A stretch of 64,000 bases of DNA from Aurelia coerulea (lineage: Eukaryota > Cnidaria > Scyphozoa > Semaeostomeae > Ulmaridae), in NCBI GenBank assembly GCA_039566865.1, contig CM076961.1, forward strand, positions 8,517,501 to 8,581,500, given 5' to 3'. This document shows positions 3,571 to 56,835 of this stretch, in pieces; positions within the stretch are counted from its first letter, which is position 1, and each line of letters opens with the position of its first letter. The notes under the pieces were generated by a model. It was given only the letters and a program-made list of their open reading frames with translations, ran no database searches and was not told the origin of the DNA. A program made the position numbers and the translations under genes.

Positions 3571-4389
3571 AGTTGCTGTTACCAAAAAGGTGCAATTTTG
3601 TCCAATAACAGCGATTTATTCAAAATGAAATAAAAGAAAAACTGGTCCTGGCCCTACAATCTAACTTGGTGGTACAAAACTTCAGGATACAACAAACATG
3701 ATGGACAAGGTAGGATATCTGGGAAAATTTGCAAACTATTTGTAAATTCCTGTTACTTTGCTCAAGTCACAATATCTTTATTTTCCCGTAACAGTACCAC
3801 TCCCTCATCAAATTGGGATTACTCTATCAGTTTTTGGAATTAAAGGCTGAGAATAGATCGAGAAAACAGTGGAAAGACCCTTAATTTGATTTTTGTTTCT
3901 GGATTGAATATTTTCCCTCCCGTTTAAAATATTCATGGAAAAGTAGCAGATAAACATTTTTATGCCTGAAATTGCAGCCCCTCGACTGACCTCAGGGAAA
4001 TTGCTGTAAAACAAATCCACTCCTGGCCCTACCAAGAAACTTCGCAATTTTGAATTTAACATGTTGGTATAACATGGCAGTGTACTGCGATTATCTAGGA
4101 AAATTTGCAAAATGTGTTATTTTCGTTTTTGAAAAGTTTCATTTCTGACGGTAATTTCTCTTATAAACAATGGCCTATGGGCCTATACACAGCTGTGTTT
4201 TGAACAGATGCAAGTAGGCTTGTTTATGTTATCTTCAAATAAATTAAGAACTAGATGAAAGGCTGGAAACTAATTACCACTTCACATATTTTGAATGAAA
4301 ATAAAGTTGACTGCTAATTTTAAACAATTGTTTGACAAAAAGAAGCATTTTAATCAAAACATTGACCTAACTGTTGTTCTTGGTTGAGC
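3571..4389. other. No gene or recognised repeat
   Basis: This stretch is AT-rich with short frames only. Nothing in it could be tied to another part of the window. Confidence 0.4.
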
Positions 4390-5059
4390 TTAAGGTAACT
4401 CTGCTTTCCGCTCTAGTGCACAGCAAGATGCCGTTTCGCAAAACCACTCTCCTCAGAAAACAGTTAATTTCTCCAATATTATTCGGCCTATCGAAAAGCG
4501 GTAAAAAGGATGTTGTTCTGTATAATCTGGGCAATCGAAAAATGTATAAATCGCAATGTTTCCGCCAACCCTAGCTTCGCAAATCCTATTTCAAATCTTT
4601 TTGCTAATTTCAGAAAAGTGGATTTATCTCCAAAACTACTCAAAAAATGTTCGATTTTTTTTCGTTCCATCTTTAGCTAGGTTGTTGATCTACAACTTTG
4701 CCAAGTCTGATTGAAAAAGCTAGGCTAGATTTCCTGCAATCGAATTTCTGTTTACTTTTCGACAGCGAAATGGAGAAACCTTGGTCAACGGATTACCATG
4801 CTATGAAGCACGCTGGCAAAAGCTCAGGCTTGAAATAACTTTCAGAGGTTTTTCCATTGGCAAACAAATGAACGTCATCTTTTGGGAATGCCATACGCAG
4901 GTCTCAAAAGACACCCATAGTGCGCTTGTAAAAGTATCACTTGCATCTATTGATTAAAAAGTACTGACTTTTACCAGCAACTTCACGCAACCATGCTTTG
5001 GGTGTCTTTCGAGACTTTCGTAAGCATTCACAGACTATCAATTTCTTTTAGAGTCCACA

Positions 5060-7725
5060 ATGAGCGTTTGCGTATACGTGAAAGCAGACATTAAATTCGA
5101 GGTGCAACATGACTTAACATTTAATTGTCAAACCCCTTGTGAAAACCTTTGGTTTACTATATCACGAGATAACGTAGAAACTATCATAGGTTTGATTTAT
5201 AGACATCCTGACGGATCCATCAAAGACTTCAGCCAAAAACTTGAGTTCACACTTGACAAAATTGCAAAATCTAAGTTTAAGCAGGGAATCCTTATTGGAG
5301 ACATTAACATTGATCTGCTTAAGTACAATGACAGTAAACATAAACCCGTCAAGGAATACTTAGATCTCCTCATTGCGCATAGCTTCTTTCCCCAAACAAT
5401 CTTGCCTTCAAGGGTAACTAAAAATACTTTCTCACTCGTTGACCACATCTTTTTATTTCAACAGCGACACAGTGCAAAAATAGGAGCAGGTAACTTAATA
5501 ACAGACATCAGTGACCACTTTGCATCCATCCTTGTTCTGAAAGAGGACACGAACAGCAATAGGAACGTACCAAAAGTACGTTGCTTCAGCGAGAAAAACC
5601 GTGCCAGATTCAAAGAAAATATGCAAAAAATGAATTGGGACGATTTCTTCAAGCGCAAAGATGCTAATAAATGCACTGTAGTTTTCAACGACAATTTGAC
5701 AAAATGCTTCAATGATTGCTTCCCTTTAAGAACATTACCCAAAAAGCGCCTGAAAGATAAACCATGGGTTAATAAAGGCCTTAGAAGGTGCATTCAGAAG
5801 AAAAATAAGCTTTATAAGCGCTCAGTCAAACTCAAAGACGAAGGTTCAATTAGTAAGTACAAGACATATAAGAACATCTTGACAATGTGCTTGAGACAGG
5901 CCGAAATAAATTACTTAAACGATATCTTGAAAGACAAAGCAAGTGCTATATTCCGTATGTGGTCAATTATGGGACCCATGCTAAATCCCAAAAAATGCAA
6001 ACAGACGATCAGAATAGCTAAGTTAGTCGATAAATCTAAGCGTACTTGGACGTCAGATGCTCATATTGCTTCGTTGCTAAATAACTTTTTCTGTAACATT
6101 GGCAAGGCAATTAATGGTATGGTTGAGCCCACACATACAGCTTTCACTGAGTACCTTAGAAACCCCAACGAGCATTCTTTCTTTCTAAGCAGGGTTACCG
6201 AACTAGACGTTCTTAATGAAATCAATGGCTTAAAGCCAGGTAAAGCTGCTGGTTACGATAACATTAGACCTGATCTTATAAAAGATTGCTATGAGAGCCT
6301 AGTGAGACCCCTTACTTATATCTACAATATGTCTTTCAAAACTGGGGTTTTTCCAGACATTTGGAAGATTGCAAAAGTAATTCCTGTTTTCAAAAAAGGA
6401 GATCGAAGTAACGTAGATAATTATCGCCCGATCTCTCTACTTTCGTGCTTTGAGAAAATCTTTGAGAGATTAATGTGCAAAAGAATGCTAGCCTTTCTAA
6501 AGAAGCATAACATCTTATACAAACTACAATTTGGTTTCAGAGAAAACCATTCCACTGTGATGGCACTTATCGAAGCCTTAAATGAGATGTACAAAAGCCT
6601 TGACGAAGGAAAATTCGTCTTAGGTGTCTTTCTCGACCTCAAAAAGGCTTTTGATACGATTGACCACAAAATCCTTCTGAAAAAGCTCGAGCATTATGGC
6701 TTTCGTGGGATAGTTAATAAATGGTTTTCTAGTTACCTACTCAATAGGAAACAATTTACTTCTGTAAATGGGAATTGCTCTACACTGAGCTCTATTAGCA
6801 CTGGTATCCCACAAGGGTCTGTTTTGGGACCATTACTTTTTACCATATATGTAAACGACATCGCTAATTCAACACATCTCCAGCCACGTCTATTCGCTGA
6901 TGACACAAATATTTTTGCTGCCAATGAAAACATTACCCATCTTATCCAAAACACCAACACTGAACTAGCAAAATAGATACATGGTTTAAGGCTAATCGTT
7001 TAAAGTTAAGCGTAGACAAGACAACTTACTGCGTATATTCTCCAAAAAAGAAATTAGTCATGAATACTCCCGATGTTCGTATAGGTGATGTAATACAAAA
7101 ATCTGACAGTGTCAGATACTTAGGATTAATCATTGATGAAAAACTTACATGGGAAAAGCACATAGATGAATTAGGAAACAAAGTTAACCGTTACGCCTCT
7201 ATCTTCCGAAAAATTCGTCACCTTCTTCCAAAGAACTGTCTGCAGTCTATATACAATGCTTTTATCCAGTCTAGAATAGATTACGCTATCGAAATTTATG
7301 GTGATGCAACCAAAAAGTTAATTCAGCGTAGCCAAGTACACCAAAACAGAGTTTTGAAAATCCTGCAATACAAAAGGAGGCTTGCCTCTACCAATGAAAT
7401 ACATAAAGATTTCCAAGTTTTAAAAATCTCTGACCAATATGAACATAAAATCCTGAAATTGATGCATATGTATGTAAATAACAAAGATAAACTACCAGCA
7501 GTCTTCCAAAATCTGTTTCAAACAAGATCAAGCTTACATAACTACGAAACGAGACACAGTGATCTTTTCCAAGTGCCAAAAACCAAAACTCGATTTGGTA
7601 ATTGTGCCATCTCTGTAAAAGGAGCAAAATTGTGGAATTCCCAGCCCCCTCATTTGAGAAAGATACAGGCATTAACAAGCTATCTTAAAGCTCTGAAAGA
7701 GTATCAAATAGGCTCCTACCTTTAA
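5060..7725 (+). pseudogene. L2/CR1-type LINE ORF2 (endonuclease C-terminal half plus reverse transcriptase), one frameshift
   Basis: The first part (5060-6976) holds the C-terminal half of an APE-type endonuclease (GDINID, then a SDHF motif near residue 153). A reverse transcriptase follows, with KKGDRSNVDNYRPISLL, motif [25 protein letters not shown] and the catalytic FADD. At about 6975 the frame ends at a TAG. The protein resumes one frame over (DTWFKANRLKLSVDKT) and runs to the stop at 7725, so a single missing base explains the break. The N-terminal half of the endonuclease is absent, which fits 5' truncation. The product would copy its own RNA at a nicked target. It sits in the loop of the TTAA palindrome and must be younger than it. 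The otherwise open frame suggests a recent insertion. Confidence 0.88.
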
Positions 7726-16297: not shown

Positions 16298-16509
16298 CTG
16301 GGGTACACAAAGATTTTTTCGTAAGGGTGATGGATTTCGCCTAAAATCTGGAATAAATCATTTGTGCACTCGTGAAATCGACTGCGCATATCTTAAAGAT
16401 ATTCTGCGTTTATTTCTGCATCGTATGATACACAAATATTTGGTATATTTTGAAGAACGGCCGTGGTAAACAGGGATTCTTAATCACCGTCTGAACGGTT
16501 ACAGTAACC
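16298..16509. mobile_element. Right-end fragment of the TTAACTGTAACC-type element
   Basis: This segment matches 56380-56591, the right end of the complete TTAA element at 53446-56591, and ends GGTTACAGTAACC followed by TTAA (16510-16513). No left end was found nearby, so it is a truncated copy. Confidence 0.7.
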
Positions 16510-52745: not shown

Positions 52746-53750
52746 AATCTTTCCTAGTTTTGTTGGGTCACTTTTCAGTAAATCATTTGTGTTCAAACAC
52801 TGAAATAAGTGTTCAATGGTTTCTTCTTGAGCTCCACACGTTCTGCATAAGGCATTTTCATGTTTTCAGTCAAACTAATCAATGCGTGGTCAGGGGAGTT
52901 GCCACTACAGAAACCAAATTGCATCTCAAAGAGAATCTCATGGAGTTCTAAGAAGCTATATAGTCGCTGATGCATAAGTTTTTCAAAGATTTTACTGAAA
53001 ACTGACAATAAAGAGATGGATGGGTCTGTAATTTGCATTTATTGCTATATCACCTTTTTGTGAATTGGAATAACCATAGCAATTTTCAGCTTGTCAGGAA
53101 AAATACCATTCTGGAATGAATCATTGATGATTAGAGAGAGCTGTAAGGAAATGTGGGGGTCAAGTATTTTAAGTAATTTTACTGGAATACTATTTGGTCC
53201 AAGAGTCTTGCCTTTTTTAAGTGACTGTATTATTTTAGAAACCTCATCAGGGGCTGTTGGGGAAATAAAGAAGCTGCTGTTATTTGGAATGTTTAAGTAC
53301 TTAAGGGGAGAATTTGGATTTCTTGGGATTTTGCAATTGTTTGCAATGTTAACAGGATCTGTTACTTTAACACCATTTTCATCAGCAAGATTAGAAATTG
53401 AGACTGCTTCACCAGTGACTGCCTTAGTTTTGATGACACTTTTAAGGTTACTGTAACTGTTCAGACGACAAATTTTCGATTTTTCGTTTTTGTCATAATC
53501 TGATGGTATAAGTATTTGAGTAAGGTTTAAACCAACTCACTACCAGAAATAGCCACAATTTCTTGGAGATTCGAGCATTTTAAAAGGAGCAATCCTGCTT
53601 CAGAAATTGCGGGAATATACATTAGGGGATTAAAGTAAACTCACTTGATCTTGCAGCTATGTTCATGACATCCTGTGCTGCTTTGTTATCGACATAATGC
53701 TTTACCAATACCGCGCTTAAGCCTTATTGCTTGACCTTTCATGAATGATC

Positions 53751-56007
53751 AAGGGCAAAAAGACGATTTTTGTGTAGATAGATAGGCCTAAAGTATGTGG
53801 TGCTTTGGCCTTGATCGTCTCAATTCCTTGGCGTGACAATTAAATATTAACGTGTTCATTACCTTTATACAATATTCATTCATTTGTGTTGTGTTTTATC
53901 TGCGTCTTCCTTCCTGTTCTCTGCAATTTAAAACGGTTTGCAGGCCATATCGAAGCACACGAAACATCTGCCATTACAAAATCTTGTTCTGCTCACATGT
54001 GACACAGAGATGTCATGCACAGCGAAGGGGAGATCGGAGGAAGGAGGAAGGGAGGAAGAAGGAAGCATGTTAAACTCGTTAAGACTATTAAGTAATGTAT
54101 TTATCCGTCACTTGTTTCATTAGTTACACCAGTTTTTCACTTTTGGGGATTGGGCTCCAGTGCCCCTGTCTAAAAATAGCCTTTGGGGGCATTTTTCGGA
54201 ATGGCTCTATATCCAATATTTTTCAGCGTGTCAAACTGCCTATGTTCACCAAGTTTCATGCTTTTATCACAAAACGAACATTCCAACCTTAAATCTGCCG
54301 TACTATAGGTACCCTATTGTTTATCAACAATAAATGATTGTTTTCCCTACTGCACTAACAGATGCCTTCTTTGTAAATTTCAGATGCAAGGCCAGCAGAG
54401 CGAGAGGCAACTTTTTATAATTATTAGCCCTTATAATTATATGATTTATAATTTTATAGAAAAATATATTTTTTTAATTTTGTGTCCTGGCCCATGCTAG
54501 AATAATCGGGAGCTGCCTTTTGCTAGCACAGCACAGACAACGCCATTTTCATCGTTTACATGGAAAATAAAAGCTGCAAGTTACAAAAGTTTCTTAGCTT
54601 TTTAATTCAGATATTGTAATTTGTTGAGCCTACGGTTCCTTATAAGCGGCTTCTTATAAGGAGACATTGATTTTTTTGCTTTTTTTCTAATCTAAAAAGG
54701 GTCATTAGGCTAACTCAAGGGGGTCACCCTGGGGTTTTGCATGGAAAACTTGGCATTCTACTGCTTTCATCAAGGCATAATAAAATATGATAAGCATTAT
54801 TTCAAACAAAAAAATTATTTTCTATTATTCCAAACAAAACTCGGAACAAATAAGCACACACAAAAATAAATTTGACCTCATGCTCGATTTTTTGTAAGTT
54901 CATTGCGCAATACGACATTCCGTAACAAAGATAATAGTTTAAAAATTTATACAATGGCTCTCAACGCCGTTGCAAGACAAAGGTTTCATCAATTTTCATT
55001 TGTACTCATCCCTAACTAAAGTACAAGTGCCTCAACAGCCGTAATAGATCGAATTTACGATGGTGCAAAAGGCAAGATGAGTTTGCATGAGAGTATAATT
55101 TTAAGTGAAGAGCAAGCAGCCATCGTAAAGTTTAGTTTGGATATTAAATTGTATATATTTGGTTTTATCTCAATAAACCAGGAACAACTACTCACTTTTT
55201 CGTAGCACTTGTTTGTGAAATGGGTCATTGACACTGATTTTTCTCACTTTCAAATTGAATGTTGAATGCATCATGCTTCCAAAATGATTCAAGTTAACAA
55301 TTGGGTAATGTTTCTTCGCAGCAAAATCTCTGTACCGTTCATATGCATCTTGGATAGTGATTTGGCCTTGTGCGTGCTCCACAAATAGACTCTGGGCGAT
55401 GTAGTTAAATGAATTGCAACATGCGGCCGCCATGTTTGGTTCCGCACAAGTCACTTCTTTTTAAAACTGGCGCCAAAAGCTTGCATTGCGTAGCACTTTC
55501 CTCCTAAGAAGTTAATGCTTTGGGATTTTGAGGAAAGGACTTCTGTGGCGGAGAGTGCTTGCGTGGTTGCATTGGCCCCCTAACTTCCCTAACAAGTTGT
55601 CAGGATAGATTACCTTATATGGCAAATATATGTTTCTCGCCTCGTGCGAAGCCGTAGAATTAGCAGAAAGTTTGCGTCTCACCCATCCTTTTCCCTCTTC
55701 AGTTATATTTCGCGCAGAAGACAATTTCGCTGCGCATGACAAGACAACTCTGTGTCACATGTGAGCAGAACAAGATTTTGTAATGGCGGATGTTTCGTGT
55801 GCTTCGATATGGCCTGCAAACCGTTTTAAATTGCAGAGAACAGGAATGAAGACGCAAGATAAAACACAACACAAATGAATGAATATTGTATAAAGGTAAT
55901 GAACACCTTAATATTTAATTGTCACGCCAAGGAATTGAGACGATCGAGGCCAAAGCACCACATACTTTAGGCCTATCTATCTACACAAAAATCGTCTTTT
56001 TGCCCTT
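53751..56007. repeat. Inner inverted repeat of ~270 bp within the TTAA element
   Basis: AAGGGCAAAAAGACGATTTT at 53751 matches inverted TTTTTGCCCTT at 55997-56007. The arms are nearly identical over about 270 bp. AATGATC flanks both sides (53744-53750, 56010-56016), so this may be a separate inserted transposon with a 7-8-bp duplication, not the subterminal part of the outer element. Confidence 0.65.
55196..55433 (-). CDS. First exon encoding an RFX-type winged-helix domain
   Basis: On the minus strand an ATG in strong context (CAAACATGGCGG, 55433) opens 79 codons that run into a consensus donor (AAAAA/GTGAGT). The peptide begins MAAACCNSFN, then has FVEHAQG, DAYERYRDFAAK, HYPIVNLNHFGSMMHSTF and a Lys/Arg-rich end. 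The order (helix, Y-x2-Y, P-V/I-N-x-FG, then F and basic residues) resembles the RFX/ARID2-type winged helix that binds DNA. Later exons were not found before the left inner arm. It lies within a TTAA transposon, so it may be a transposon gene or a captured host exon. A CpG-rich GCGGCCGC covers the start codon. Confidence 0.5.
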
Positions 56008-56835
56008 GAAATGATCGTATTTCCCGCAATTCTTGCTTCATTTTGATAAAACCATGATTTCTCGAAACATGATTCCGGAGTACTGGTGGGTAATAAAAAA
56101 TCTTTGCGTACCCAACAGGCCAATCGAATTGCTTGAAACTTGGCACACAGAGTCTCAATGCATATAACTACGAAACCGTGTCAGCGATTTGTGATAGATC
56201 CACTGGTTCGATTTTTACAAGGGTCTGAAAGTTAAAAAATACATTTAAGACATTTACATTTATTTAAAATGATATCATTTCAAGAAAATACCTTTTACCA
56301 AAAATTCGTGACACGGTTTTTGCAGTTCAGGGCCTTAAGTCTTTGGTAAATAGATAGTCGTGGTCCAACGATTATCATTGGGGTACACACAGATTTTTTC
56401 GTAAGGGTGGTCGATTTTGCCTAAAATCTAGAATAAATCATTTGCGATTTTATTGAATCAACTGAATATATTTTTATGATATTCTACGTTTAATTCTGCG
56501 TCGAATGACGCATAAGTTTGTTTGGTATATTTTGACGAACGGCCGTGGTAAACGGAGTTTCTTAATCACCGCCTGAACGGTTACAGTAACCTTAATACCC
56601 TTCCAGAGCAGCTTGACATTTGCCTTATTTTCTGCAAAGTAATTTTGATAGTAGTTTGATTTACTTGCTTTTAACTCATTAACAACTCGATTTCTAAACT
56701 GTTTGTAGTCAGAATAGTCCACAAAAGATTCACTTTATTTGAATTGCTGAAATAGCCTGTCTCTTATCCTCATCATGCGCTGAATTCTAATGTAAATCCA
56801 GGGTTTATTTCTTAGTTTTAGAGATTTTTTGTTTA

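Follow-up and report, generated by a model that had tools for sequence, protein, structure and literature searches.

An RFX-type winged-helix exon, probably native to a PIF1-carrying transposon, within nested elements of Aurelia coerulea

Introduction

Host transcription factors are the best-known carriers of RFX domains. Helitrons carry a PIF1 helicase and are not known to have inverted repeats or target duplications. We analysed a 64,000-nucleotide stretch of the genome of the scyphozoan Aurelia coerulea (GenBank GCA_039566865.1, contig CM076961.1, positions 8,517,501 to 8,581,500; hereafter the window), in which an interval flanked by TTAA lies within a long interspersed nuclear element (LINE) and contains an exon resembling the RFX DNA-binding domain, together with the start of a PIF1 helicase gene. 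Two described groups of DNA transposons come closest. The Kolobok superfamily has a TTAA target duplication and 5'-RR...YY-3' ends, according to passages of PMC9587614. Galileo, of the P superfamily, has a 7-bp target duplication, long inverted repeats and a transposase with a THAP domain (excerpts of PMC4168063), and parts of PMC7642931 describe many PIF1-like helicase genes in the Hydra genome.

Our analysis shows that the interval consists of two nested elements and that the exon belongs to the inner one. It is probably a native exon of a PIF1-carrying transposon, here represented by a 2.26-kb deletion derivative inside an 882-bp TTAA element that itself sits in the LINE. We found no open-access literature linking RFX or an RFX-type winged helix to TTAA, transposase, Kolobok or transposable elements, and the combination is not described in the titles or abstract openings of papers listed by broader searches; Repbase lies outside this scope and may contain the family.

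Results and discussion

The TTAA interval is two nested elements

The outer element (53446-56591) is bounded by TTAA on both sides and ends in terminal inverted repeats of 22 bp with two mismatches. Excising it, with a single TTAA kept at the junction, leaves a LINE frame of 39 codons uninterrupted. The original prediction had placed the limits and the restored LINE in just this way, and both hold. It had also assigned the exon to the TTAA element, a claim that copies elsewhere in the genome overturn. All four fetched copies of the outer family are 881-883 bp long (about 882 bp), are flanked by the TTAA duplication as in the window, and run unbroken across the insertion point, where three read TTTCATGCATGATCGTATTT and the fourth TTTCATGCATATTCGTATTT; in the window, TTTCATGAATGAT and AAATGATCGTATTT stand on either side of the insert. 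A genome search with the first 1,201 bp of the interval scored 40 of 1,767 first-look candidates, which makes its counts lower bounds. It returned at least 59 matches: the window itself, 22 to the left part of the outer element only, ending near base 305 of the query, and 36 to the inner element, two of which cross the border between the elements by at most 13 bases. The unbroken outer copies and the separate outer-only and inner-only matches thus establish the nesting.

The inner element (53750-56008; 2,259 bp) is unrelated to the outer one. Inverted repeats about 269 bp long bound it (53749-54017 and 55740-56009, 97-99% complementary). Its ends, which read CAAGGGCAAAAAGACG in the family, begin with CA, as do those of P elements. 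We compared 17 loci of this family, the window and 16 fetched, of which 12 are two-ended and five (L031, L032, L033, L038 and L040) one-ended in the stretch compared. The two-ended copies are flanked by a perfect duplication of exactly 7 bp in 11 of 12 cases, the window matching at 6 of 7 bases, and lengths of 5, 6, 8 or 9 bp give no perfect flank match. Among mispaired flanks, 6 of 7 bases were reached in 2 of 132. Comparison of the 12 copies also rules out a 5-bp duplication, AATGA, that had been read by eye.

These observations leave almost no credence for an exon that forms the N-terminus of a Kolobok- or piggyBac-like transposase of the TTAA element. Its position between the TTAA ends would fit; the four outer copies lack the whole insert, which has inverted repeats and duplications of its own, and the unbroken copies rule this placement out.

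The outer element resembles Kolobok, as presented in passages of PMC9587614, in its TTAA duplication and in its ends, GG...CC, which fit the 5'-RR/YY-3' rule. No transposase was seen in the fetched copies of only about 882 bp, so its superfamily assignment is drawn from the ends. The inner element shares 7-bp duplications and long inverted repeats with Galileo and the P superfamily as given in excerpts of PMC4168063, but a PIF1 gene is seen in it together with an RFX-type exon, and the Galileo transposase has a THAP domain. We met no THAP domain in it, though no search was aimed at THAP, and found no transposase of the inner family. Its inverted repeats and target duplications likewise distinguish it from Helitrons, with which it has the PIF1 helicase in common.

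Several minor observations concern the two families. At 16299-16509 the window repeats part of the outer right end (83% identity over 213 bp), followed by TTAA. Other inner copies have an unrelated stretch of about 370 bp in place of positions 54066-54306 (about 240 bp). Two long inner copies, L032 (5165-9001) and L033, have a large inverted-repeat region (98%, nearly 4 kb) in common, and L042 carries an insert of about 0.9 kb (4188-5096) that is rich in short repeats and unmatched in other copies.

The exon resembles an RFX-type winged helix

As predicted, the minus-strand frame is open from 55433 to 55196, with an ATG in good context and a GTGAGT donor. The window exon matches the Pfam RFX family (PF02257) with E 0.0015 and 19.5 bits, under the cut-off of 27; the best score in the exon protein family is 24.8 bits, and all are below the cut-off. 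When a profile of the family is compared with solved structures, RFX1 and RFX5 rank first (1dp7, 8zjr). Family profile and fold comparison support a predicted RFX-type winged helix, for which the order H-S-H-H-S and an RFX protein as closest fold would be expected; the last strand of the winged helix lies outside the window exon. The RFX-like reading made earlier thus stands as a distant match that scores below the Pfam threshold. We consider it somewhat unlikely that the domain is nearer to the D5 or phage P4 origin-binding winged helix or to that of ORC, with a role in replicating the element instead of binding its ends. The protein database gave no relatives for the exon alone, a padded query or an L057-type exon, and scans of viral and bacterial contigs gave no match.

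The exon was found in none of the 16 other inner-family loci (tblastn, E ≤0.05; the five one-ended loci may extend further), and the whole segment 55089-55565 occurs in the assembly only in the window. Judged from its sequence, the window copy, reduced to a first exon, cannot make a working protein.

This uniqueness would suit a captured host exon, whereby the inner element took up the promoter of a host RFX-like gene with its first exon and the beginning of its intron. Capture of this kind is known for gene-capturing transposons, and the start region ATGGCGGCCGC reads to us like a host promoter. Even so, we regard capture as quite improbable. The 574-Mb assembly contains no near-identical donor, despite inner copies that are only about 6% diverged; the leader is common with that of another element (L081) to 13 bp before the ATG; and the arrangement of PIF1 and exon recurs in a divergent family described below. 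The original prediction had allowed for capture and had held that other copies without the exon, together with a unique matching host gene, would refute its reading. Such copies are found, but no such gene matches: among the matches listed, the next best places are about 36% identical, and several of them lie inside another transposon family. Its other proposal, an accessory or transposase N-terminal domain, is supported as a guess, but for a transposon other than the one it named.

A PIF1 frame probably joined to intron 1 of the exon gene by deletion

In the window the PIF1 frame ends prematurely, about 20 codons in, and gives way to the putative intron 1 of the exon gene (Table 1). Past the point corresponding to 55141, the inner-family locus L038 continues with frames, two of them separated by a stop, that together cover most of a PIF1 helicase, and the longer frame matches Pfam PIF1 with E 1.7e-18. 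On the other side of the exon, similarity in the leader extends to 55515 in L042 and to 55489 in L053, and the more diverged L081 leader is about 80-82% identical as far as 55446. The deletion ends differ among inner-family copies, as expected of internal deletions of a larger parent.

Two further candidates were rejected. Homology of 55142-55514 to the PIF1 stretch at that point in L038 and L042 gives alignment scores equal to those of shuffled sequence, and frame 6153-6395 of L038 turned round, considered as the last exon of the winged-helix gene, has no Pfam match. Separately, a place at C2:9100094 has a leader resembling that of L081, and positions 54483-54583 of the window (minus strand) hold an inverted piece, within the inner element, that is 78% similar to the PIF1 gene of L038.

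Table 1 Features of the nested elements, in window coordinates
Feature	Position	Strand	Remark
Left target duplication TTAA, outer element	53442..53445	.	
Left outer terminal inverted repeat, GGTTACTGTAAC...	53446..53467	+	
Left portion of outer TTAA element	53446..53749	.	4 of 4 fetched copies unbroken to 56011
Left 7-bp target duplication of inner element, GAATGAT	53743..53749	.	6 of 7 bases match the right one
Left inner terminal inverted repeat, CAAGGGCAAAAAGACG...	53750..54017	+	
Start of PIF1 helicase frame, cut at 55141	55077..55141	+	Frame ILSEEQAAIVKFSL common with L038, there continuing into PIF1
Putative intron 1 start after exon, donor GTGAGT, deletion-joined to cut PIF1 frame	55142..55195	-	Intron predicted from donor
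First exon, predicted RFX-type winged-helix part, 79 codons and one base	55196..55433	-	
Leader upstream of exon, partly common to other copies	55446..55600	-	
Right inner terminal inverted repeat	55740..56008	-	
Right 7-bp target duplication of inner element, AAATGAT	56009..56015	.	
Right portion of outer TTAA element, including right target duplication of inner element	56009..56591	.	
Right outer terminal inverted repeat	56570..56591	-	
Right target duplication TTAA, outer element	56592..56595	.	

The same arrangement in a divergent family

A genome search with the exon protein (E up to 10, 40 candidates scored, the weakest possibly chance matches) finds at least 39 further places at 25-38% identity, the best with E 3.9e-4; related exons lie, for instance, at C5:6498823 and C14:18042547. 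We fetched 25 of the 39 and grouped them by DNA similarity into sets of eight, nine and six loci and two singles; the stretches are unequal in length, and the grouping may partly reflect common repeats outside the exon. With the window exon as query, local tblastn missed the expected exon in five of the 25 loci (L058, L071, L073, L074 and L075), of which L058 was retained because its frame has a Pfam RFX match. Visual reading places the donor in phase 1 for the window exon, L057, L070 and L076, and probably for L051; a clear donor is lacking in L052 and L058.

One copy, L051 with L078 (contig C5, in the group of eight), has inverted repeats of 366 bp (95%) enclosing a forward PIF1 gene (E 7.3e-40) and the exon in reverse, with a short upstream exon recognized by eye and a 7-bp duplication, ATGCGAC, observed in this one copy. 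L054 with L080 and L056 follow the same plan, and L055 with L079 has the exon end only. The end sequence of this family gives 19 full-length matches; 14 of these form seven pairs, each around an exon near one end (four pairs of 3.7 kb and one each of 5.7 kb, 15.6 kb at C6:13547935-13563486 and 22.9 kb at C4:17216286-17239232), and an exon lies no more than about 1 kb from three of the five ends left unpaired. Because this divergent family repeats the order of inverted repeat, PIF1, convergent exon, inverted repeat and 7-bp duplication, a native transposon exon is the most likely explanation of the window exon.

Some observations weigh against a native exon. L055 is without PIF1 in the stretch examined, and the A-type exon of L051 gives no Pfam RFX match of its own. 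The 15.6- and 22.9-kb pairs are defined by position and orientation and may be different elements or enclose insertions. The remainder of the winged-helix gene was not found, and the exon segment is without a second copy, its place in the parent being taken from the parallel family.

We propose that the 882-bp TTAA element would have entered the LINE first, and that the 2.26-kb internal-deletion derivative, with its long inverted repeats and 7-bp duplication, would then have entered the TTAA element. The parent would carry a PIF1 gene that starts close to one end and, running towards it from the opposite end, a gene with an RFX-type winged-helix first coding exon. Loss of the middle in the window copy would have brought the first intron of the winged-helix gene up against PIF1 at about codon 20. 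The parent may have moved by cut and paste via its inverted repeats. The winged-helix protein, as the N-terminal part of a transposase or as an accessory, may bind the element's own ends or an inner origin, and PIF1 may unwind DNA as the element moves, in gap repair or in its replication. The window fragment would be mobile only through the proteins of another copy.

Should the full element prove real, it would represent a cut-and-paste transposon with its own PIF1 helicase and RFX-like DNA-binding protein. As RFX domains are mostly known from host transcription factors, such elements could be the source of, or debtor to, host RFX- and D5-type domains. The locus also corrects a trap, in that an exon seen in one transposon belonged to another nested within it.

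A candidate transposase near related exons

A protein family encoded convergently with the L052 exon and adjoining it has 69 and 102 genome matches with two queries, and open frames of up to 1,436 residues. Within 433 residues of the candidate gene at L082, CGLH occurs once, following HTDGTK and MTDRCAVN, and the catalytic residues are putative. Transposases of the hAT/P/MuDR/Kolobok/Dada clade have C/DxxH between the second D and the last E, and L082 is compared with them by this motif. The family has no significant Pfam or solved-structure match, so its reading as a DDE transposase is putative.

Seven of the 39 listed exon places lie within 3 kb of a candidate match, compared with a mean of 0.2 in rotations, none of 2,000 of which reach seven; nine lie within 10 kb (mean 0.6, none reaching nine). 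Of the seven, three fall in the L052 group and the other four were unfetched, so they may not be independent. The A-type exon at C17:1864560 has a candidate match 6.3 kb off on the opposite strand (E 2.5e-7). The protein is thus a candidate transposase seen near related exons, not tied to the inner family of the window. A possible but doubtful extension is that the exon marks an undescribed large (about 15-23 kb) animal DNA transposon with long inverted repeats and 7-bp target duplications, combining PIF1, an RFX-type winged-helix protein and a separate CxxH-type DDE transposase, many of whose remnants are concentrated on four contigs.

Contigs C5, C22, C9 and C17 make up 15.8% of the assembly and contain 31 of the 39 listed exon places. 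The same four contigs contain 139 of 170 candidate-transposase matches, counted from merged lists in which some places occur twice.
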